From: Bacillota bacterium
GTDB taxonomy: Bacteria; Bacillota; Dethiobacteria; Dethiobacterales; Dethiobacteraceae
Direction of reading: 5' to 3'
Length of the DNA stretch: 64,000 nt
Assembly (NCBI GenBank): GCA_018725565.1
Contig: QLUR01000002.1
Location: 62,001-126,000, forward strand
Each line of letters starts with the position of its first letter. Within the stretch, counting starts at the first letter, position 1. Shown one piece after another: positions 14,571 through 26,982 of the stretch. Both the position numbers and the translations under genes were made by a program. Below the pieces are notes generated by a model, which had not been told where the DNA came from, did not search any database, and was given only the letters and a program-made list of their open reading frames with translations.

Positions 14571-16310
14571 ATGAAGGAAAAATACAGTTTAACCGGGGAG
14601 AGAATGTACGCGGTCCTCAACTCCACTTACGACGGGATTGTAGCCATAGACACCGCCGGCCGGGTCACATTGTTCAACGCCGCGGCGGAGCGGCTGCTGG
14701 GCCATTCCGCTGAGACGGCTTTGGGTATGCACGTCAACGAAGTTATACCGGGCACCACGCTCTGCCAGGTTCTGGAAGACGGCAGGCCTCAGTTGGGTGT
14801 GATTTTGGAGGTAAACGGCAATACGCTGCTGACAAACCGTACCCCTGTGTTAAGAGGAGGAGAGATCGCCGGCGCGGTCGCCGTCTTTGAAAATATCGCC
14901 GGGATTAAAGAATTGCACAAGACGCTGGATGATACCCGCACTTCCGTAGAAGTACTGGAAACGATCCTGGACAGCACCTACGACGGCATTGTTCTGGTGG
15001 ACAAACAGGGCATTGTCACGAAAATCAACCGGGCTTATCTGGATTTTCTCCGAATCAAAGAAGAAGACGCCGTGGGGAAACATGTTACCGAAGTGATAGA
15101 GAATACCCGAATGCATATTGTGGTGGAAACAGGCAAGGCCGAAATTGGCCACGCCCAAAAGATTCGCGGCAGTGAAATGGTGGTAATGCGTCTGCCCATT
15201 TTCAAAAACGGGGAAGTGGTCGGTGCCGTGGGTAAAGTGATGTTCAGGGACCTGCGCGAACTGAAAGCCCTGGCCGAAAACCTGAACCTGATCGAAAACG
15301 AACTGAAATATTACAAGACTGAACTTCACCGTCTGAAAGGCGCAAAATACACGTTTGAAAACATTATCGGCAACAGCGAACAAATTTCCGCGGCCAAGCA
15401 ACTGGCCAGACAAGCGGCAGCTTCTGACTCCACGGTGCTGATTTACGGAGAAAGCGGCACGGGCAAAGAAATTTTTGCCCATGCTATCCATAATTACAGC
15501 TACCGTCACTTCGGGTCTTTTGTGCGCGTTAACTGCGGGGCGATCCCCGGGACGCTGTTTGAGTCGGAACTGTTCGGCTATGAAAAGGGAGCTTTCACAG
15601 GTGCCCAGAAGTGCGGCAAGCCCGGCAAGTTCGAACTGGCTAACAACGGGACGATTTTCCTGGATGAGGTCGGCGAGATGCCCCTGGAGATGCAGGTTAA
15701 ACTGCTCAGGGTCCTGCAGGAAAAGGAAATAGAACGCGTGGGCGGGACAAAGCTGCTGCCGCTCGATGTGCGCGTCATTGCCGCTTCCAACAAACCGCTG
15801 GAAGAACTGGTAAAAGAAAAGAAGTTCCGGGAGGATTTGTTTTACCGGCTGAATATCTTCCGGATCGAGCTGCCGCCGCTCAGGGACATTCCCAAGGATA
15901 TTCCGCTGATGGCCAGGCACCTGGTCGCCGAGCTGAACGAGTCTCTTGGCACCGCGGTATACGGCTTAAGTGAAGAAGTGGTGCGGATTTTTCAGAAATA
16001 CACCTGGCCCGGCAACGTACGTGAACTGCGCAACGTACTGGAGAGAACGGTAATTGTCAACCGGCACGGCGAAATCCAAAAAAACCAGCTGCCCCTTTAC
16101 TTGCTGCAAAACGAGCTGCGCTTGACCGATGATTTGCTGCAACTGAAAAAAGATTTCCCCGGCAAACTGGACCGGGTTTTACAGGACGCGGAAAAAGCGC
16201 TGATTCTCAAAGCGCTGGAAATGACCGGCAATAATAAACGGCAGGCCGCTCACCTGTTGGGCATTCACCGTTCGGCATTGTATCAGAAAATAAATAAATA
16301 CCACCTGTAA
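14571..16310 (+). CDS. PAS-domain sigma-54-dependent transcriptional activator
   Basis: A 579-residue enhancer-binding protein. Two PAS domains occupy about residues 10-110 and 125-235 (both contain ILDSTYDGIV-like starts). The AAA+ domain has Walker A GESGTGKE near 292, the sigma-54 contact loop GAFTGA near 340 and Walker B GTIFLDEVGEM. A Fis-type HTH ends the protein (ALEMTGNNKRQAAHLLGIHRSALYQKI). The PAS pair suggests a small-molecule or redox signal. It lies directly upstream of a -24/-12 promoter and paired palindromic sites in front of a CoA-transferase, its probable target. Confidence 0.95.
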   Translation: MKEKYSLTGERMYAVLNSTYDGIVAIDTAGRVTLFNAAAERLLGHSAETALGMHVNEVIPGTTLCQVLEDGRPQLGVILEVNGNTLLTNRTPVLRGGEIAGAVAVFENIAGIKELHKTLDDTRTSVEVLETILDSTYDGIVLVDKQGIVTKINRAYLDFLRIKEEDAVGKHVTEVIENTRMHIVVETGKAEIGHAQKIRGSEMVVMRLPIFKNGEVVGAVGKVMFRDLRELKALAENLNLIENELKYYKTELHRLKGAKYTFENIIGNSEQISAAKQLARQAAASDSTVLIYGESGTGKEIFAHAIHNYSYRHFGSFVRVNCGAIPGTLFESELFGYEKGAFTGAQKCGKPGKFELANNGTIFLDEVGEMPLEMQVKLLRVLQEKEIERVGGTKLLPLDVRVIAASNKPLEELVKEKKFREDLFYRLNIFRIELPPLRDIPKDIPLMARHLVAELNESLGTAVYGLSEEVVRIFQKYTWPGNVRELRNVLERTVIVNRHGEIQKNQLPLYLLQNELRLTDDLLQLKKDFPGKLDRVLQDAEKALILKALEMTGNNKRQAAHLLGIHRSALYQKINKYHL

Positions 16311-16328
16311 GCCTTATGTTCATAATTA

Positions 16329-16422
16329 TAGACATGTCTAAAACTGTAGACATGAGCGCTCCCCCTTAATTTTTGTCAGCAGGCACCCTAGTCAGGCTGC
16401 CGATGTCTAGAAAAATAGACAT
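16329..16422. promoter_or_regulatory. Two copies of ATGTCTA-N6-TAGACAT, probable activator sites
   Basis: The inverted repeat ATGTCTA-N6-TAGACAT occurs at 16334-16353 and again at 16403-16422, 69 bases centre to centre. An extra TAGACAT half-site overlaps the first copy, making a perfect TAGACATGTCTA palindrome at 16329-16340. They lie about 60-155 bases upstream of the -24 element, the usual place for sigma-54 enhancer sites. Binding by the adjacent activator is inferred from position. Confidence 0.78.
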
Positions 16423-16452
16423 AGGGTGTTCGCGGAAAGGCAGTATAAGTAG

Positions 16453-16478
16453 AAAAAGCCCGAAATTTCGGGCTTTTT
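16453..16478. terminator. Perfect palindromic terminator after the activator gene
   Basis: AAAAAGCCCGAAA (16453-16465) is mirrored exactly by its complement (16466-16478), ending in a run of T. It probably ends the activator transcript and works in both directions. It lies between the enhancer sites and the sigma-54 promoter, insulating the CoA-transferase gene. Confidence 0.85.
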
Positions 16479-16483
16479 TGTTT

Positions 16484-16500
16484 TGGCAGCAGTTTTGCAA
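16484..16500 (+). promoter_or_regulatory. Sigma-54 (-24/-12) promoter
   Basis: TGGCAG-N5-TTGCAA at 16484-16500 matches the sigma-54 consensus TGGCAC-N5-TTGCA with the invariant GG and GC separated by exactly ten bases. Transcription would start near 16510, about 35 bases before the CoA-transferase ATG. Confidence 0.85.
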
Positions 16501-16545
16501 TATAGAATTTGTTGCAGGCTGATTTAAGGAGAGGAAGTATAGGCG

Positions 16546-18081
16546 ATGCAGATTATTACAGCAAAGGACGCTGCAGCGTGGATTGAAGACGGCGATACAG
16601 TGGCGATTGACGGATTTGTCGGTTTCGGCCACCCCGAGGAATTAACGCTTGCCATAGAAGAACGCTTTAAGAACGAAAGCAGACCAAAGGGGTTAACGAT
16701 TGTTTACGCGGCCGGTCAAGGCGACGGGAAAGAGCGGGGAATGAATCATTTGGCCTACGAAGGGTTGGTACGGCGGGTCATCGGCGGCCACTGGAACCTG
16801 GCTCCTAAGCTCGGCCGGATGGCGGTGGAAAACAAAATAGAGGCCTACAACTTTCCGCAGGGGGTAATTACGCACCTGTTCAGGGATATTGCCGCCGGCA
16901 AGCCGGGCACCATTACTCATGTGGGGTTACGGTCTTTCGTTGACCCACGCCTGCAGGGAGGCAAATTAAATGAGATTACCACAGAAGACCTGGTGGAACT
17001 TGTGGAGCTGGCCGGGAGGGAATGGCTATTCTACCATGCTTTCCCGATTAACCTGGCTCTCCTGCGCGGAACGACTGCCGACCTGAACGGCAACATTACC
17101 ATGGAAAAAGAAGCGCTGACGCTGGAGGTCCTTTCACTGGCCCAGGCCGCCAAAAACAGCGGCGGCAAAGTTATCGTCCAGGTAGAGCGCGTCGTGGAAG
17201 CTAATACGCTGAACCCGCGGCTGGTTAAGGTCCCAGGAATTCTTGTTGATGCTGTGGTGGTGTCACGGCCGGAAAATCATATGCAGTCCTTTTCCTGTCA
17301 GTACGAGCCGTCCTTCAGCGGAGAACTGAAAATGCCGCTCTCCGCTATCCCGCCGATACCGCTGGATGTTCGCAAGGTAATTGCCCGGCGCGCGGTGATG
17401 GAACTGCGACCCGGCATAATCGTAAACCTGGGGATCGGAATGCCGGAAGGCGTCTCCGCGGTGGCAGCGGAAGAAGGGATAGGCTCATTTATGAAGTTGA
17501 CTCTGGAGTCGGGGCCGATTGGCGGGTTGCCGGCCGGCGGGCTTTCCTTCGGGGCGGCGTACAACCCGGAATGCATTATAGACCAGCCTAACCAGTTTGA
17601 TTTTTATGACGGCGGCGGGATAGACCTGGCTTTTCTCGGCTGCGCCCAGGTCGATATGTCGGGCAATGTCAATGTCAGCAAGTTTGGTCCCAGAGTAGCC
17701 GGCACCGGCGGTTTTATCAATATCAGCCAAAACGCCCGCAAAGTAATTTATATGGGTACTTTCACCGCTGACGGCCTGGAAGTTAACGTGAACGAAAGCG
17801 GCATCCGTGTTGTTCAGGAAGGACGGCAAAAAAAGTTTGTGCAGGCAGTGGACCAGGTTACCTTCAGCGGCGAGTACGCGCGTGAGAAAGGAAGGGAAGT
17901 TATTTATATCACTGAAAGGGCTGTTTTTGAGCTGCGGCCGGAAGGGCTGACCCTGACGGAGATTGCCCCGGGCGCGGATTTGGAGCGGGATATTCTGTCA
18001 CAAATGGCCTTTAAGCCGCTTTTGGCGGAACAGATAATCACGATGGATTTAAGGATCTTTCGTAAAGAAAAAATGTTTTAG
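16546..18081 (+). CDS. Propionate CoA-transferase-like acyl-CoA:carboxylate CoA-transferase
   Basis: This 511-residue single-chain protein fuses the alpha and beta halves of class I CoA-transferases, as in propionate/lactate CoA-transferase (Pct). The catalytic glutamate is Glu321 in [18 protein letters not shown], and [11 protein letters not shown] plus [10 protein letters not shown] are family blocks. It would exchange CoA between acetyl- or propionyl-CoA and short carboxylates such as lactate or propionate. It is the only gene between the sigma-54 promoter and the next promoter region, and sits upstream of a GlcD-type dehydrogenase. The exact substrate is inferred from context. Confidence 0.88.
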
Positions 18082-18125
18082 CCCTGTTATAAAAATTATT
18101 TTAAATATTTTTAAAAAAATAAAGG

Positions 18126-18164
18126 ATTATTCAAATGTTGTGAATAATATTTAAGTGGTATGAT
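18126..18164 (+). promoter_or_regulatory. Promoter region with inverted repeat upstream of the FAD dehydrogenase
   Basis: ATTATTCA (18126-18133) and TGAATAAT (18141-18148) form a perfect 8-bp inverted repeat with a seven-base spacer. TATGAT at 18159-18164 with TG one base upstream is an extended -10 box; TTGTGA at 18138 is a poor -35 (15-base spacing). The repeat overlaps the -35 area, as expected for a regulator site. Confidence 0.5.
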
Positions 18165-18210
18165 GGTCAGGCCATTAGACCGACTTTTGGCACAGGAGCG
18201 TGACACTTAA

Positions 18211-19623
18211 ATGTATAATCCTGTAACTCCAGAAATTGTTGCCAGGCTGCAGGCCATTGTCGGGGCGGATAATGTCATCTTTGACGACCCGGAAAGGCTG
18301 GAGAGTTACTCGCATGATGAAATAGCGGAAAAAGAATATGCTCATTTCCCGGAAGTGGTGGTAAAGCCCGGCAGCACCGCGGAAGTATCGCAAATTATGC
18401 AACTGGCGAGCAAAGAAAAGATTCCGGTAACGCCGCGCGGCGCCGGATCCGGTCTTTCCGGGGGAGCCGTGCCTGTCTACGGCGGGATTCTGTTATCGGT
18501 GGAAAAGATGAACCGTATCCTGGAAATTGACTTGGATAATCTGATGGTTGTGGTCGAGCCCGGTGTGGTGACAAACGATATTAACGAAGAGTTGAAAAAG
18601 CACGGTCTTTTTTTTGCCGGGTATCCCATGAGCCTGCAGTCCTGCTTTATCGGCGGAAACGTGGCGGAAAATGCCGGCGGCGGCAAGGCTATTAAATACG
18701 GGGTCACCGGCCGCTATATCACGGGGCTGGAGGTGGTGCTGGCCGGCGGCGAAGTTGTGCAATTCGGCAGCAAGTGTGTAAAAGATGTCACCGGGTATAA
18801 CGTGGTCCAGCTGATGGTCGGTTCAGAGGGGACACTGGGAATATTTACTAGCATTATTATTAAACTCTTACCGCTGCCGACGGCTAAAATCGACTTGCTG
18901 GCCCTTTTCCCCGACGTGGAGACGGCTATCAGCGCCGTGCCGCTGATGATGACCAAGGCCCGGATAGTGCCGACCGGCATTGAATTTATGGACCGCCTTT
19001 CTATGGTTACGACCCACGAGTTCCTGGGAGAAAAAATGCCTTACCCGGAAACAAACGCCGCCCTGTTAATTGAACTTGACGGCGCTAATCAGGAGCAGCT
19101 GCTTAACGAGGCCATAACCCTCTCAGAAATCCTGGAGGAACATGGAGCCATAGAAGTGTACGCCGCCGAGACGCCTGACATGCAGGAAAAAATGTGGAGA
19201 GTACGGCGCAATATCGCCGAAGCGTTTAAAGCCGTCAGCCCTGTGCAAAGCCTTGAGGACATAGTCGTTCCTATCGCCAGTATTCCCAAGCTGATGCCAA
19301 TCCTGGCCAGGCTGGCGGAAAAATATGATGTGCTGATTCCCTGTTACGGGCATGCCGGTGACGGCAACCTGCATGCTACGCCGGTTAAAAAAGCTGACGA
19401 CACCATGGAGCGCTGGGCGGAAATCCTGCCGCAACTGCTGACTGAGCTGTACGCAGCCGTTCATGCCCTCGGCGGCACCATCAGCGGCGAACATGGCATC
19501 GGCCACAAACGTAAAAATCACCTGCCGCTGGTCATGGGAGACAAAGAACTTTCCCTGATGAAGGGTATCAAAGCGGTTTTTGACCCGCAAAACATTGTAA
19601 ATCCGGGAAAAATTTTTAGCTGA
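18211..19623 (+). CDS. GlcD-type FAD-dependent 2-hydroxyacid (D-lactate/glycolate) dehydrogenase
   Basis: The 470-residue flavoprotein has the PCMH FAD-binding fold: TPRGAGSGLSGGAVP, MSLQSCFIGGNVAENAGGGKAIKYGVTGRYI and GSEGTLGI near residues 80-215, then the FAD-oxidase C-terminal domain with CYGHAGDGNLHATP and GGTISGEHGIGHKRK. It oxidises D-lactate or glycolate to the 2-oxoacid, passing electrons to an acceptor not encoded here (no adjacent Etf or iron-sulfur partner). Neighbouring CoA-transferase, LarA and lactate permease favour lactate. Confidence 0.92.
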   Translation: MYNPVTPEIVARLQAIVGADNVIFDDPERLESYSHDEIAEKEYAHFPEVVVKPGSTAEVSQIMQLASKEKIPVTPRGAGSGLSGGAVPVYGGILLSVEKMNRILEIDLDNLMVVVEPGVVTNDINEELKKHGLFFAGYPMSLQSCFIGGNVAENAGGGKAIKYGVTGRYITGLEVVLAGGEVVQFGSKCVKDVTGYNVVQLMVGSEGTLGIFTSIIIKLLPLPTAKIDLLALFPDVETAISAVPLMMTKARIVPTGIEFMDRLSMVTTHEFLGEKMPYPETNAALLIELDGANQEQLLNEAITLSEILEEHGAIEVYAAETPDMQEKMWRVRRNIAEAFKAVSPVQSLEDIVVPIASIPKLMPILARLAEKYDVLIPCYGHAGDGNLHATPVKKADDTMERWAEILPQLLTELYAAVHALGGTISGEHGIGHKRKNHLPLVMGDKELSLMKGIKAVFDPQNIVNPGKIFS

Positions 19624-19735: not shown

Positions 19736-20839
19736 ATGAAAAGCAGAAAGACAATTATCTTGGCCCTGTTGTTGGTACTCTCGCTCGTTATCGCGGTTGT
19801 CGCCGGCTGCGCCCCGAGGCAGGCGGCCCCGGGGCCAGCCGCACCCCCGGCTCCGGAAACGATCAGGCTGCGGCTGGCCACCACCTGGCCGAGCGCCATT
19901 ATGCTGCAGCAGATGCCGGTCAGGTGGGCTGAAGACATTAAAGCCGCCAGCGGCGGCCGCCTGGAAATTGAAGTTCACCCGGCCGGCGCCCTGGTTCCCG
20001 CGCCGGAAGTGCTGGATGCCACCACTGCCAGGACGATAGACGCCTATCATACTTTCGGCGGTTACTGGCTCGGCAAAATGCCGGCGGCTCCGTTCTTCTC
20101 CTCGGTGCCGATGACCCTGGAACCCTTCATGCACCTGGTCTGGGTGTACGAAGGCGGCGGTCTGGAGCTGTGGCAGCGCATGTACGACGAGGCCGGCTAC
20201 AACGTCAAAATTCTTCCTCTTGGCATGACGCACCCCGAAACATTGGCCTGGTCCAACAAGCCTCTGAGAAAGTTTGAAGACTGGGATGGGCTGAAATACC
20301 GGACCGTCGGCTGGTGGGCGGAAATTCTGAGGGAGAGAAGAGTTTCCGTAACTTCCATCCCGGCCGCTGAACTGTACCCGTCTCTGGAGCGCGGCGTTAT
20401 TGACGCCCTGGAGTTCAGCACCCCCTACAATGACAGGGTACTGGCCTTCTACCAGGTCGCCAAGTATCTTACCGGACCCGGCATGCACCAGCCCGGCACC
20501 CTCTTTTATGTCGGCATCAACAAAGACTCTTGGAACGCCCTGCCGCCAGACCTGCAGGCCCTGCTGGAAACCTCTGCCCGGTCCGCCACCATGTGGAGCT
20601 GGGCCAAGGACTTTAACGAAAGCATGGCGGCTATTGACTACTTCAGAGAAAAAGGCATTCAGTTTGTAGAAGTGGACGAGTCCGTCCAGAAACAGCTCAA
20701 AGCAGATACGTTCGCCTTGCTTGATAAAAGAGCCGCGGAACAAGGCGGCATCTTCGCGGATATCTGGAATTCGATTAAGGCCTTCCGGACCCGGTTTATC
20801 CAGTACGAAGACCTGATGGTACCGGTCCGCGTCAAGTAA
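19736..20839 (+). CDS. TRAP transporter substrate-binding lipoprotein (DctP type)
   Basis: The 367-residue protein opens with a lipoprotein signal ending in the lipobox VAGC (Cys25), then APRQAAPGPAAPP linker and the DctP fold: IRLRLATTWPSA, MPVRWAEDIKAASGGRLEIEVHPAG, a central LKYRTVGWWAEILR segment that normally carries the ligand-binding arginine, and ALEFSTPYNDRV. It would be anchored outside the membrane and deliver a carboxylate to the DctQM permease encoded next. AGGAGGGAAG precedes the ATG. The ligand, likely a 2-hydroxy or 2-oxoacid, is inferred from neighbours. Confidence 0.92.
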   Translation: MKSRKTIILALLLVLSLVIAVVAGCAPRQAAPGPAAPPAPETIRLRLATTWPSAIMLQQMPVRWAEDIKAASGGRLEIEVHPAGALVPAPEVLDATTARTIDAYHTFGGYWLGKMPAAPFFSSVPMTLEPFMHLVWVYEGGGLELWQRMYDEAGYNVKILPLGMTHPETLAWSNKPLRKFEDWDGLKYRTVGWWAEILRERRVSVTSIPAAELYPSLERGVIDALEFSTPYNDRVLAFYQVAKYLTGPGMHQPGTLFYVGINKDSWNALPPDLQALLETSARSATMWSWAKDFNESMAAIDYFREKGIQFVEVDESVQKQLKADTFALLDKRAAEQGGIFADIWNSIKAFRTRFIQYEDLMVPVRVK

Positions 20840-20937
20840 GACACTCCGGGGAACGGCAAAGCCCTGCCGGAAGCCTGTTGCTTGCGGCTTTGGGCTTTGC
20901 TTGCTCCCGGCAATTCACTGGGGAAGGAGTCATTCGC

Positions 20938-21456
20938 TTGCAGATTGTAAAGAGTATCTTCGGCACAGTTGACAAAGTAAACGAATTCCTGGCCAAGCTG
21001 TTTGCCTGGACCATGCTGCTGCTGGTCCTGACGATGACTTTCGAGGTTGTCTCCCGCTACGGCTTCGGCCGCCCGACGCTCTGGAGCTTTGATGTAAGCT
21101 ACTTTTTGTCCAGCATGATGATTATGCTGGGCATGGCATATACCTGGCGCATCAAAAGCCACGTCAGAATCGACATTTTTTATAACAAGTTTTCACCGAG
21201 AAAGAAAGCGCTGGCAGACGTAATTTTTGCGCTGCTTCTTTTTTTCCCGCTCCTTATCCTGCTGACAGGGGCCATGGTCCCGCATGTCATGTTTTCCTGG
21301 GCGCAAGGAGAAAGAAGCTGGGTCGGCACCTGGCTGCCCATCATTTATCCCTTTAAGACCTGGGTTACGGCGGGCGTAATCCTGCTGTTGCTGCAGGGAA
21401 CCGTGGAGTTTATCCGTGACTTGTATGTGGCAGTTACCGGGGGTGAGCGTCCGTGA
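20938..21456 (+). CDS. TRAP transporter small permease (DctQ type)
   Basis: A 172-residue membrane protein with four hydrophobic segments of the DctQ family (VNEFLAKLFAWTMLLLVLTMTFEVVSRY, WSFDVSYFLSSMMIMLGMAYTWRIKSHVRID). RYGFGRPTLWSFD and YTWRIKSHVRID are the family signatures. I start at TTG 20938, with GGAAGGAG eight bases upstream; a TTG at 20878 gives an unlikely extension. It overlaps the large permease gene by four bases. Confidence 0.9.
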   Translation: MQIVKSIFGTVDKVNEFLAKLFAWTMLLLVLTMTFEVVSRYGFGRPTLWSFDVSYFLSSMMIMLGMAYTWRIKSHVRIDIFYNKFSPRKKALADVIFALLLFFPLLILLTGAMVPHVMFSWAQGERSWVGTWLPIIYPFKTWVTAGVILLLLQGTVEFIRDLYVAVTGGERP

Positions 21457-22772
21457 GCAGTGAGATGATTACTCTGCTGATGCTGGTCTCGCTGATTGCC
21501 CTGATTATGCTGGGCTACCCCATTGCCCTGGTGCTTGGCGGTCTGGCCGCCATCTTTGGGCTGATCTTTATCGGGCCGCAGGTCGGTACTTTCTTTATGC
21601 TGCGTATTTTCGGCATCACCGCCGACTACATCCTGATTGCCATTCCGCTCTTTGTCTTTATGGGGGTGATCATCGAAAAGTCCGGTCTGGCCATGCGTCT
21701 TTATGAGGCTATGCACGTTTTATTGGGCCGCCTGCGCGGCGGATTGGCCCTGGCCACTGTGGTGGTCTGCACCATTTTTGCCGCCGCCACCGGCGTAATC
21801 GGCGCTTCTGTCGTAACCATGGGCTTGCTGGCCCTGCCCGCCATGCTAAAACACAAATACAACAAGTCATTGGCTACCGGTGCGATCTGCGCTTCAGGCA
21901 CGCTGGGTATCCTGATCCCTCCGTCCGTCCTGATTCTGGTTTACGCGCCGCTGGCCGGGCTCTCTGTCGGCGAAATGTACATGGCCGCCTTTCTTCCCGG
22001 CTTTATGCTGTCCGGTCTGTACCTGCTCTATATAGTGATCCGCTGTTACCTCCGGCCCCAGGACGGACCGGCTATGCCCGCGGAAGAACTGGCCGGATAT
22101 ACCACCGGTAAAAAGCTGACCATGCTGGCCACCTCCGTATTGCCTGTCGCCGTCCTGATTCTGGCGGTGCTCGGCTCAATTTTCTACGGCCTGGCCGCGC
22201 CCACGGAGGCGGCCGGTATCGGTGCCTTTGCCTCCATGCTCCTGGCGCTGGCCTACAAATCGCTTAACAAAGAGACTTTGAAAGCTGCCGTGTACAGCAC
22301 CATGAGCATTACCTGCATGATTTACCTGGTATTGATGGGGGCCAACTTCTTCAGCTCCGTTTTTCTCCACGTTGGCGGCGGCAGGGTGGTTACCGACCTG
22401 GTGCTTGGGCTGCCGTTCCCGGATTGGGGTATCACTTTGGCCATGTTTGCCATCGTTTTTCTGATGGGGGCCTTCATTGACTGGGTCGGGATTTTAGCGA
22501 TTATTGTGCCGCTGTTTACACCGATTGCGGCAGGGCTTGGTCTTGACGCGCTCTGGTTTGGCATGATGATAGTGGTGATCATGCAGACCTCGTTCCTGAC
22601 GCCGCCTTTTGCCTATGCTATTTTTTACCTGAAAGGCATAGCTCCCCCGGAAGTGGAAACGATGCATATTTACCGCGGGATGGTGCCGTTTATCCTGCTG
22701 CAGCTTCTTGGTGTTGTCATTTTAGCCATTTTCCCGCAAATTATCTTATGGCTGCCGGGCTTGATGAAATAA
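21453..22772 (+). CDS. TRAP transporter large permease (DctM type)
   Basis: The 439-residue protein has about twelve membrane segments and matches DctM: PLFVFMGVIIEKSGLAMRLYEAM, TGVIGASVVTMGLLALPAMLKHKYNKSLATGAICASGTLGILIPPSV and QTSFLTPPFAYAIFYLKGIAP. It forms the sodium-coupled channel of the TRAP importer with DctP and DctQ. It begins at GTG 21453 overlapping dctQ (GTGA). Confidence 0.95.
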   Translation: MSSEMITLLMLVSLIALIMLGYPIALVLGGLAAIFGLIFIGPQVGTFFMLRIFGITADYILIAIPLFVFMGVIIEKSGLAMRLYEAMHVLLGRLRGGLALATVVVCTIFAAATGVIGASVVTMGLLALPAMLKHKYNKSLATGAICASGTLGILIPPSVLILVYAPLAGLSVGEMYMAAFLPGFMLSGLYLLYIVIRCYLRPQDGPAMPAEELAGYTTGKKLTMLATSVLPVAVLILAVLGSIFYGLAAPTEAAGIGAFASMLLALAYKSLNKETLKAAVYSTMSITCMIYLVLMGANFFSSVFLHVGGGRVVTDLVLGLPFPDWGITLAMFAIVFLMGAFIDWVGILAIIVPLFTPIAAGLGLDALWFGMMIVVIMQTSFLTPPFAYAIFYLKGIAPPEVETMHIYRGMVPFILLQLLGVVILAIFPQIILWLPGLMK

Positions 22773-22845
22773 CGCGGAGTTACCATGAGAAATGCGGCAG
22801 GAGGTTTGCCGGGTGTAAAGAATTATTATATACGCAACGTCGGAA

Positions 22846-22877
22846 GACCAACGGAAAAGCGCGCTTTTCCGTTGGTC
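22846..22877. repeat. 32-bp perfect palindrome upstream of the FadR-type gene
   Basis: A 16-bp arm (22846-22861, starting GACCAACGG) is followed without a loop by its exact reverse complement (22862-22877). It lies between dctM and the regulator gene and would form a very stable hairpin or cruciform. There is no T-run, so it is not a typical terminator. Confidence 0.85.
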
Positions 22878-22880
22878 GAA

Positions 22881-22911
22881 ACGTCGAAAATGCAGGACGG
22901 ATTTTCGACGT
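22881..22911. repeat. Second inverted repeat, 11-bp arms
   Basis: ACGTCGAAAAT (22881-22891) and ATTTTCGACGT (22901-22911) flank a nine-base loop, beginning three bases after the 32-bp palindrome. Together the two hairpins fill most of the leader of the regulator gene. Confidence 0.85.
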
Positions 22912-22961
22912 CATGTATGGTGTCTATGCAAGGTAAATTACGCCTGAACGAGGGGAAGCCG

Positions 22962-23708
22962 TTGTTTAAGCCTATCAAGCAAAAACGGGTTTACGAGGGG
23001 ATCCTGGAGCAGGTCCAGCAACTGGTGACGGAAGGCGCGCTGAAGTCAGGTGACCGCCTGATTTCCGAACGCGAGATGGCCGAGCGCCTGCAGGTCAGCC
23101 GCGCTTCGGTCCGGGAAGCTTTCAGCGCCCTGGATATGCTGGGCATCCTGGAAAGCCGGCCGGGGGAGGGGACCTATATTCGCACCGTTCCCCGGGAGTC
23201 TGCCTTAAAGCCGCTTGCCCTGATAGTCATGCTGTATAACGAACGAAAACTGGATATCATGGAAGTAAGAATGATCCTGGAAGCGGAAAGCGCGGCCCTG
23301 GCAGCGCAGCGGGCCACGGCGGCGGACCTGGTCAGGATCAAGGCCTGTCTGAACCGCCTGGAGCAGGACTTTTTAAACGACCGGCTGGGTGAAACATCAG
23401 ACGCCGATTTTCATATGGCGATTGCTGACGCCACGGAGAACATGGTGCTGGCCTGGTTCATGGATACCGTTTCCGATTTGTTGAAGGCCACCATGCGTTA
23501 CAGCAGGCAGCGCCTGTTTGAAAATCCGCAGAACAAGGAGATGCTTCTGCAGCAGCATAGAGAAATCTTTGAGGCTATCAGCTGCCGGAACCCGCAGGGG
23601 GCCAGGCAGGCTATGACGGAGCACCTAAAATTTGTCTGCGATATAATTGCCGTGTATGAGAAAGAGTACGAGGAGAGCGAGAACGGCTGCCTCCTTACTG
23701 CGGAGTAA
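22962..23708 (+). CDS. FadR/GntR-family regulator (FCD domain)
   Basis: A transcription regulator of about 248 residues. The winged HTH reads VYEGILEQVQQLVTEGALKSGDRLISEREMAERLQVSRASVREAFSALDMLGILESRPGEGTYI, and the all-helical FCD ligand domain follows (VRMILEAESAALAAQRAT, DADFHMAIADATENMVLAWF, HREIFEAI) with the Asp and His residues that bind metal and carboxylate ligands. LldR-like members sense lactate. I start at TTG 22962 (GAGGGG upstream); ATG 22926 or 22785 would add residues encoded by the hairpins, which look non-protein. It is followed by larA after 16 bases. Confidence 0.88.
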   Translation: MFKPIKQKRVYEGILEQVQQLVTEGALKSGDRLISEREMAERLQVSRASVREAFSALDMLGILESRPGEGTYIRTVPRESALKPLALIVMLYNERKLDIMEVRMILEAESAALAAQRATAADLVRIKACLNRLEQDFLNDRLGETSDADFHMAIADATENMVLAWFMDTVSDLLKATMRYSRQRLFENPQNKEMLLQQHREIFEAISCRNPQGARQAMTEHLKFVCDIIAVYEKEYEESENGCLLTAE

Positions 23709-23724
23709 AAAAGAGGTGAGATCA

Positions 23725-25005
23725 GTGCAGGAATATTTATTCGCCTACGGCAAGGATGACCTTACCTGCCGCCTGAGCCCGGAGAGAATTTTAGGCACGC
23801 TGCGCCCCAAACCCCTGCCGTCCCCGGACAACGAGCAGGAGGTAGTGCGCCGGGCCATGGAAAACCCCATTGGCTCGCCCCGCCTGAAAGAACTTGTCAA
23901 ACCAGGTGAAAAAGTTTGCCTGATCGTCGGCGACATGACCAGGCTGTGGGCCCGCTACCAGGTCATGGCACCGGTTATCCTGCAAGAGCTTAACGAGGCA
24001 GGCCTTCCCGACAAGGATATCACCATTGTCTCCGCTACCGGCGCCCACCGCGCGCAAACGCCGGAGGAGCATGAAAAGCTGGTGGGCGCAGAGGTTTACA
24101 GACGGATCAAGATGCTGGACCACGACTGCCGGGACGCCGGCCTGGTGAAACTGGGCACCACTTCCCGCGGCACACCGGTACTGGTCAACCGCCTGGTCTA
24201 TGAAGCGGACCGCGTGATTTGTACCAGCGGCATTGTCTATCATTTCCTGGCCGGTTACGGTGGCGGGAAAAAAGCCATTATGCCGGGAGTGTCCGGCTTT
24301 GCCAGCATTATGGCCAATCACAGGCTTTCCCTCAATTCCGAAGGACCGGGGCTTAATCAGGATGTCCGCGCCGGAAAGCTGGCCGGCAATCCGCTCTCGG
24401 AGGATATGCTGGAGGCGGCACGACTGGCGGGCGCCGATTTTATGGTTAACAGTATCATAAACGATGAGCATAAAGTGGCATTGGCAGTCGCCGGCGATTT
24501 GGCCGCGGCCCATGAGGCAGGCGCTGCCCTGGTGGATGAATATTTCGGCGTGTCCATCAGCGAGCTGGCCGACTTGGTCATCGCTTCCTGCGGCGGCTAC
24601 CCGAAAGATATCAACCTGTACCAGACATACAAAACCGCCCATAACATGGTCAAGGCCATGAAACCGGGCGGAGTCGGCATTTTGCTGTCCGAGTCGTGTG
24701 AAGGGATCGGCAACGATAAATTCCGGACCATCTGCACTGATTTTCCTGACAACGAGTCGCGGGAGCAAGAGCTGAAAACAAACTACGAGATAGCAGGTTT
24801 TATGGGTTATACCCAACTGCTGTGGGCCCAGCAAAACCATATTATTCTGGTCAGCAGCCTGCCTCCGGAGCAGGTCCGCCAGATGAACATGATTCCGGCC
24901 CGCAACCTGGACGAGGCGCTCTCGCTGGCCGAAGGATACCTGAACAGCGACTACCGGGTTTACCTGATGCCGGCGGCGGCCACCACATTGCCATTGTTAA
25001 GCTGA
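23725..25005 (+). CDS. larA: Nickel-dependent lactate racemase LarA
   Basis: The 426-residue protein matches LarA. Residues known from the family to bind the nickel-pincer cofactor and act in catalysis are all present: His108 in TGAHRAQTPEEH, His173 in VYHFLAGYGGGKK, Lys183 of the GGGKK and His199 in IMANHRLSL. It interconverts D- and L-lactate or a related 2-hydroxyacid. GTG 23725, with AAGAGGTGAG upstream, gives numbering that matches the known enzyme within one residue. No cofactor genes (larB, larC, larE) are in the window. It shares the FadR transcript. Confidence 0.92.
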   Translation: MQEYLFAYGKDDLTCRLSPERILGTLRPKPLPSPDNEQEVVRRAMENPIGSPRLKELVKPGEKVCLIVGDMTRLWARYQVMAPVILQELNEAGLPDKDITIVSATGAHRAQTPEEHEKLVGAEVYRRIKMLDHDCRDAGLVKLGTTSRGTPVLVNRLVYEADRVICTSGIVYHFLAGYGGGKKAIMPGVSGFASIMANHRLSLNSEGPGLNQDVRAGKLAGNPLSEDMLEAARLAGADFMVNSIINDEHKVALAVAGDLAAAHEAGAALVDEYFGVSISELADLVIASCGGYPKDINLYQTYKTAHNMVKAMKPGGVGILLSESCEGIGNDKFRTICTDFPDNESREQELKTNYEIAGFMGYTQLLWAQQNHIILVSSLPPEQVRQMNMIPARNLDEALSLAEGYLNSDYRVYLMPAAATTLPLLS

Positions 25006-25239: not shown

Positions 25240-25326
25240 GAGTGAGGGAGGGCAAAGTGTGGGAGATTAAGGTGGTGAGGATGGCCGGAGCTGTTACAAT
25301 AATAGTTAAGAAAGGAAGTGAGAAAT

Positions 25327-26982
25327 GTGGGTTTGTTTGTACAGGCGTTTTTGGCCGCGTTACCTCTTTTGGCGACTATAGTGCTAATAGGAGGCTTTTT
25401 ATGGCCGGCCCAAAAAGCTATGCCCATTGCCTGGGCTTTGGCTGCCCTGTTGGCTGCCGTCGTCTGGCAAGTGGATTTGGTACGTGTGTTGGCGTCGGGT
25501 ATGCAGGGTGCGTTAATAGCCCTGGATATTCTGGTCATTCTTTTTGGCGCTGTTCTGGTACTGAATATTATGCAGAGCAGCGGGGCCATGGGAGTAATTA
25601 ATAAAGGCTTGCAGGGAGTTACTGCCGACCGGAGGGTGCAAGTGCTGATTATCGCTTATGCTTTTGGCGCCTTTATTGAAGGTGCTGCTGGCTTTGGCAC
25701 ACCGGCAGCATTGGCGGCGCCGCTATTGATCGGCTTGGGCTTTCCCCCGCTGGCAGCGGCTGTGGTAGCCTTAATCTGCAACTCTACGCCGGTGAGCTTC
25801 GGCGCTGTCGGCACACCCATCATGGTAGGGCTAAGGGCGGCAGTAGATGGTTTGCTGCCGGCGGAAATGCCGATAGCTGATTTTCTGGTTTATGTCGGGC
25901 ATTGGGTAGCTTTGCTTCATTTCCTGATTGGTTTGCTGGTGCCGCTTATAGCCGTTATGGTATTGACACGTTATTATGGCAAGAGCCGTTCCGTTAAAGA
26001 AGGACTGCAGGCAGCGCCGTTTGCTCTTTTTAGTGCTTTGGCTTTTCTGGTGCCGTATTTTATAACTTCACGCATCGCTCCTGAGTTGCCTTCGGTTATT
26101 GGCGGGATTATTTCTCTGCCAGTCATTATCCTGGCGTCACGGGCCGGCTTTATGACGCCGAAGAGTCCCTGGGAATTTGATGAAAAGTGGGAGAGCGGCT
26201 GGGGCAAGCCGCCTGAAACAGTTGAGGAAAATGCCGGCAAAGAAGCTCCCATGTCGCTTTTCTTAGCCTGGCTTCCTTACGTTGTTATCGGGCTAATATT
26301 GGTAGCGACACGCATGGGTGTGGGGCAAGATGTTTTACGGGGGGTTACCTTATCCTGGAGCGGCATTTTTGGGGTGCCAGGCATTAATTACACGATGATG
26401 CCTCTCTGGCTGCCCGGCACGCCTTTTGTGCTTGCTGCTTTCCTCGCGGCGTTTATGTACAGAATGAAATTTGAACGGGTAATGACAGATTTCAGCAAGA
26501 CGTTCAAACGAGTAGGCCCGGCGGCGGTTGCTCTTGTATTCGCCGTTGGTGTGGTGCGCATCATGATGAATTCGGGGGTTAACCTGTCGGGATATGAGGG
26601 TATGATTTTGGTTATGTCCAGATTTACGGCTGACGTGGTAGGCGGCGCCTGGCCGCTGGTTGCGCCGTTTATAGGTGTGGCTGGCGCTTTTATCTCCGGC
26701 AGCAATACTGTTTCCAATATTCTTTTTGGAGGATTTCAGTACAGTATAGCTTCTTTGCTGGGGATTTCACATGTAATTACCGCGGCATTACAAGTCGTTG
26801 GCGGGGCTTTAGGTAATATGATTTGCGTACATAATCTGGTTGCCGTTGCTGCTGTGGCTGGTGTTTTAGGCCTGGAAGGGAAGATGATACGGATAAACTT
26901 AGCGCCATGCCTGATCCTTACCTTTCTGGCGGGTCTTTTAGGGTTGTTATTGATTTATGTCATTGGTGCCGGAGTATTTTAG
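25327..26982 (+). CDS. lctP: L-lactate permease (LctP family)
   Basis: A membrane protein of about 551 residues with twelve or more hydrophobic segments and the LctP signatures [37 protein letters not shown] and [19 protein letters not shown]. It imports lactate or glycolate with protons. GTG 25327 is better spaced from AAAGGA than GTG 25318. Codon choice (more TTA/TTG and GCT) looks less GC-rich than the neighbours, and the gene is bracketed by the cobQ repeat, both signs of later arrival. Its end overlaps the convergent cobQ end by 23 bases. Confidence 0.93.

Follow-up and report, generated by a model that had tools for sequence, protein, structure and literature searches.

A probable local sigma-54 control region with three operators before a CoA-transferase gene in a Dethiobacteraceae bacterium

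Sigma-54 switches built from an activator and one adjoining operon are well known, and the locus described here is not a new mechanism. A survey of 57 Clostridiales species sorted 263 sigma-54 activators into 39 groups; it found TGT/ACA sites with 10-12 bp spacers for 15 groups, with PAS as the commonest sensor, several sites per promoter in most groups, one target operon for most activators, and most, but not all, upstream sites 100-250 bp from the promoter (PMC6615313). Groups such as PrdR, CrbR, XcgR, XhpR and YcbP resemble our locus in that they combine a PAS one-component activator, a Fis HTH and TGT/ACA repeats, usually with one adjoining target operon and with more than one site at 100-250 bp upstream; in that survey CrbR, AhcR and XcgR have targets named cotX or cotY (PMC6615313). 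In contrast to our locus, those regulons are annotated for butyrate or butanol and come from Clostridium and Geosporobacter, with no lactate group listed (PMC6615313). A similar or identical motif, notably that of PrdR, may already be among the survey groups. Our literature search found no paper naming Dethiobacter together with sigma-54. We take cotX and cotY to be CoA-transferase genes.

Two other systems are close in one respect each. In Desulfovibrio vulgaris, the sigma-54 activators DVU3023 and DVU0539 stand over lactate metabolism genes, but they are two-component response regulators and belong to another phylum (PMC4641369). NorR-norVW of E. coli has three enhancer sites, the number predicted at our locus, and these act as the scaffold on which its hexamer forms (PMC2941729). 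PrdR is the closest NCBIfam model to our activator, which scores 539.6 bits and so does not reach the curated PrdR cutoff of 795; the target and the cluster at our locus are unrelated to proline. As for NorR, it has a GAF domain, and its site sequence, spacing and signal differ from those found here. What appears to be new is the operator sequence, the conserved geometry of three operators and a switch of DNA specificity among relatives. The type of switch is ordinary, but its layout is unusually clean and testable, and it gives a concrete candidate DNA recognition sequence for a predicted activator.

The window analysed, a stretch of 64,000 nucleotides, contains the features collected in Table 1. 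We consider it very probable that the region between the activator gene and the CoA-transferase gene controls a one-component sigma-54 circuit in cis; in this circuit, the PAS-AAA+-Fis activator encoded upstream would drive the CoA-transferase gene. As read from the sequence, this circuit is local and concerns one operon.

Table 1. Features of the predicted control region and of the genes around it (positions in the window).
Feature	Sequence	Position	Strand	Evidence or remark
Activator gene, PAS-PAS-AAA+(GAFTGA)-Fis-HTH		14571-16310	+	Pfam PF00989/PF13426, PF00158, PF02954
Operator A (degenerate)	ATGTTCATAATTATAGACAT	16316-16335	.	2 mismatches; 18 bp before operator B
Operator B, perfect palindrome	ATGTCTAAAACTGTAGACAT	16334-16353	.	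Centre about 166 bp before predicted start
Operator C, perfect palindrome	ATGTCTAGAAAAATAGACAT	16403-16422	.	69 bp after B; centre about 97 bp before predicted start
Putative intrinsic terminator	AAAAAGCCCGAAATTTCGGGCTTTTTT	16453-16479	+	Perfect inverted repeat, A tract/T tract; between operators and promoter
Predicted sigma-54 -24/-12 promoter	TGGCAGCAGTTTTGCA	16484-16499	+	TGGCAG-N5-TTGCA; predicted start near 16510
CoA transferase, YdiF/propionate-CoA-transferase type (putative target gene)		16546-18081	+	PF01144, 2.1e-29
GlcD-type FAD-linked 2-hydroxyacid oxidase		18211-19623	+	PF02913/PF01565; GlcD model below cutoff
TRAP transporter DctP-DctQ-DctM		19736-22772	+	Binding protein nearest keto-acid and lactate binding proteins
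GntR/FCD regulator, LldR nearest (below cutoff)		22785-23708	+	Pfam and NCBIfam
LarA-type racemase		23719-25005	+	PF09861
LctP lactate permease		25318-26982	+	PF02652; TIGR00795 above cutoff

A preliminary description of this DNA had placed a PAS activator gene directly upstream of the region, and this is what we found: the reading frame ends at 16310 and Pfam recognizes two PAS domains in it. The AAA+ domain (PF00158, 3.4e-70), the GAFTGA loop seen in the translation and the C-terminal Fis-type HTH (PF02954, 2.5e-13, residues 536-576), with the recognition helix IHRSALYQK, mark the protein as a predicted bacterial sigma-54 activator (bEBP). The genome has a single RpoN gene (PF04552, 3.0e-58, at C1:184254) and about eleven sigma-54 activator domains. 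Between the activator stop and the CoA-transferase start there are 235 bases, in which operators A, B and C, the terminator, the -24/-12 element and a ribosome-binding site are accommodated.

Operators B and C match ATGTCTA-N6-TAGACAT without a mismatch in a pattern scan, and the 2.67-Mb genome contains no further exact copy, in agreement with the two identical palindromes of the same geometry reported before. Among 300 simulated 64-kb windows that kept the composition and neighbour frequencies, none contained twin palindromes with 7-bp arms within 200 bp, compared to one pair in the real window. An extra half-site had been reported as well; its sequence is real, but it is better regarded as half of operator A, which begins 5' of the interval then considered (16316 versus 16329), than as a separate half-site. 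Relatives repeat the 18-bp register in which operator A stands to its neighbour. All three operators have TGT-N12-ACA and fall in the TGT-N10-12-ACA class of upstream sites. Their starts lie upstream of the -24 element by 167, 149 and 80 bp, so that two of the three are at the usual 100-250 bp and operator C is slightly closer, an arrangement that we count as agreeing with the usual distance. Another site with two mismatches, at C1:169950, was not taken as a further operator, since it lies within an ORF. We assign the activator to the operators because their sole exact genome copies adjoin its gene and because no helix like IHRSALYQK was found in the other activators whose ends were read.

From the elements, their geometry and their conservation, which are seen directly in the DNA, we infer that dimers of the activator would bind the three TGTCTA-N6-TAGACA operators 3' of the activator gene, where B follows A directly at 18 bp and C lies 69 bp further. 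The PAS domains would sense a signal, probably tied to the 2-hydroxyacid or carboxylate in use. Three dimers could then form a hexamer, an assembly that three dimer sites would suit by analogy with NorR (PMC2941729), and the DNA would loop to bring it to RNA polymerase-sigma-54 at the -24/-12 element. Transcription from the predicted start would cover the CoA-transferase gene and perhaps later genes; the GlcD-type oxidase gene may be read from this promoter too. The terminator would halt the activator transcript, so that expression of the target would depend on the sigma-54 promoter.

The -24/-12 promoter described earlier as following the sites is present, with canonical GG-N10-GC spacing in a TGGCA-N7-TGCA context, and its position is kept before the orthologous gene in three loci of the same family (L006, L007 and L016) and in the Desulfosporosinus loci. 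The pattern by itself is not rare (39 near-matches in the window versus 39.6 expected), and since this frequency is at the chance level, the support for the element comes from its position and conservation. Its -24 part is off the consensus at positions 6-7, which counts against the promoter reading. The matching elements in L006, L007 and L016 stand at distances compatible with one helical turn. A perfect terminator between enhancer and promoter had also been described. It holds for the window, where RNA folding gives a z of -4.4 on the plus strand and -5.5 on the minus strand, and where the consensus-based terminator scan did not list it; among the relatives whose sequences were read it is obvious in L007 and not in L006 or L016, and the claim is therefore true of only some of them. 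The terminator could work in both directions and end the activator transcript before the promoter. We assume that it provides insulation and is not an essential part.

If the sites mattered, related genomes were expected, according to the preliminary description, to carry them upstream of -24/-12 promoters, and the orthologous regions indeed retain the operators, the spacing and the promoter. L006, L007 and L016 come from two Dethiobacter sp. MAGs and one Clostridiales MAG; these loci correspond to the genomes G004, G011 and G002 and are not additional samples. Several of the loci compared in this study are metagenome assemblies. The activators of the three loci are 69-71% identical to that of the window, and the operators recur in the same order. 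The B-C distance is 69 bp in the window and likewise in L006 and L016, and it is 80 bp in L007; the distance from C to the -24 element is 80 bp in the window, 91 bp in L006 and L007 and 90 bp in L016; the departures among the four loci thus amount to about one helical turn. Operator B is kept in L006 and L016 and half degraded in L007. The left half of operator A is poor in L006 and L016, a point against our reading.

A composite pattern of the operator, 60-90 bp and then a -24/-12 element was found in 6 of 398 genomes of the phylum, and the reversed control gave none. Four of the six matches are clearly linked to an activator (the window, G002, G129 and G102). The match in G170 precedes a gene like that of methylmalonyl-CoA decarboxylase, with no activator in the stretch read, and the match in G114, with no module around it, is probably due to chance. 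With more distant activators, 48-50% identical or from other families, the same motif is found next to a CoA transferase (G148 and G129) or prdC (G102). In G129, of another family, a fragment of the activator whose C-terminal half is 80% identical to that of the window is accompanied by three sites, a CoA-transferase gene and a terminator identical in sequence and place to that of the window; horizontal transfer of the module is likely, as these similarities suggest. The activator frame of this locus (L141, G129:C9 about 227200-228300) is broken in the assembly into two overlapping frames. In G148, which belongs to a different family again, an activator 48-49% identical is accompanied by three TGTCTA sites, together with a terminator, a promoter and a CoA transferase; G102 has a PrdR-like activator with TGTCTA sites before a true prdC. 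Two exact palindromes were not counted as members of the module. The one in G026 (L084, G026:C73:70213-70232) lies ahead of a gene for a GntR-type regulator, with a FAD-linked oxidase gene next, and may be an unrelated GntR operator; the one in G022, at the end of a gene, forms a hairpin with a T run that resembles a terminator. No palindromes were found at the class-level CoA-transferase relatives (L090-L107), a result that is uninformative because minus-strand loci were scanned unturned.

Desulfosporosinus and a few others have homologous activators in front of the same CoA-transferase gene, and the sites there are TGTAGC-N6-GCTACA; in L123, a TRAP-type binding-protein gene replaces the CoA-transferase gene as the neighbour, as its sequence was read. 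In these loci A and B are exactly 18 bp apart, B and C 68-73 bp, and C and the -24 element 90-95 bp, except in L123 (117 bp). The -18 register of operator A relative to B has a z of 5.2 in six TGTCTA loci and 7.1 in 11 TGTAGC loci, values that are a guide only because B was picked by its motif, the loci are related and, in the TGTCTA loci, the left half of operator A stands out less (z 2.4). The recognition helices read HRS[AG]-Y[QK]K in the TGTCTA set versus mostly HRTNLYRK in the TGTAGC set. A code of a single residue is ruled out by L105, in which the HTH PRSRLYRK goes with TGTAGC half-sites, and we claim no residue code because there are few independent lineages. The two groups of loci, as compared here, are in our reading a natural change of DNA specificity. 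They provide a natural experiment in which related activators and the same target gene occur with conserved spacing while the operator sequence and the recognition helix differ. This makes it possible to test how the recognition helices of Fis-type activators relate to the bases they read, and what spacing contributes to hexamer assembly. Two copies of the CoA-transferase gene lie a few kb apart in L011 and L012, each with three operators and a -24/-12 promoter, and both are apparently served by one activator gene.

Operator C of Desulfosporosinus and one related locus has a further property: it centres a long inverted repeat. At the ten sites compared, the flanks vary in sequence and keep their pairing, with 46 cells changed on both sides versus 17.6 in shuffled data and a covariation of 0.528 versus 0.189; sliding the partner abolishes the signal. 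The perfect extension is 15-17 bp at five of the ten sites. Perfect repeats of 48-52 bp with a TGTAGC-type operator C at the centre are found at L011:3701-3752, L011:8119-8170, L012:5561-5612, L014:5217-5268 and L029:6162-6213. In the window, no extension of the repeats beyond the operator was found. The covarying flanks make an enhancer-in-hairpin or enhancer-in-terminator element possible, and we found no paper treating an operator centred in a hairpin. A wider proposal, which we regard as rather doubtful, is that a specific activator hexamer is assembled on a conserved scaffold, with distances of 18 bp, about 70 bp and, up to the promoter, about 93 bp, which did not change when the recognised base triplet switched from CTA to AGC, and that the Desulfosporosinus operator, as a hairpin tip, may be both an enhancer site and a transcript end. 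A hairpin of a similar kind occurs in G218 (L137:3243-3282), where a TGTCTA-type site is extended by 11 bp of perfect pairing, is flanked by A and T tracts and looks like a terminator; it lies directly after a sigma-54 activator gene and before a 3-hydroxybutyryl-CoA dehydrogenase gene.

Alternatively, the palindromes might serve the LldR-like GntR/FCD repressor as operators through which it controls the cluster directly. The gene of this regulator, nearest to LldR, is part of the same cluster, and the palindrome in G026 stands before a gene of the GntR type and a FAD oxidase gene. However, L006 and L016 have the sites in the same place with no GntR/FCD gene among the downstream ORFs scanned, so that the sites do not co-occur with GntR/LldR there, and in every clear locus they come after the activator gene and before a -24/-12 element. 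The TGTAGC loci share the geometry and differ in sequence, tracking the HTH of the activator. We therefore consider repression through these sites improbable. It is even harder to believe that the inverted repeats work at the RNA level, by forming hairpins in the 3' untranslated part of the activator transcript, rather than as protein sites. RNA folding of operator C does beat the shuffles (z -3.3), and the covarying hairpin of Desulfosporosinus would fit such a role, but the primary sequence of TGTCTA/TAGACA is conserved beyond what pairing alone needs, A and B adjoin each other like sites of a DNA array, the spacing shifts by about one helical turn, and the repeats of the window stop at the operator edges.

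Least credible to us is a sigma-70 promoter in the gap that drives the CoA-transferase gene, with operators that belong to another regulator. Chance matches to -24/-12 are common enough to invite such a doubt; yet the promoter scan found no sigma-70-like site between the activator and CoA-transferase genes, the -24/-12 element is present in all four loci of the same family and in all Desulfosporosinus loci, and the genome has RpoN. A sigma-54 circuit with the adjacent activator is accordingly the reading that we retain.

The genes downstream suggest what such a circuit would serve. The best solved relative of the CoA transferase is YdiF (2ahu, E 2.5e-142), and the relatives of the TRAP binding protein are a ketoacid-binding protein (PDB 7ug8, 2.1e-44) and the lactate-binding protein TTHA0766. 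Because of this gene content, we think that the cluster probably serves the use of a 2-hydroxyacid, probably of the lactate type. The CoA-transferase gene and the GlcD-type gene are separated by an AT-rich gap (18082-18210), and the downstream genes may have a promoter of their own there.
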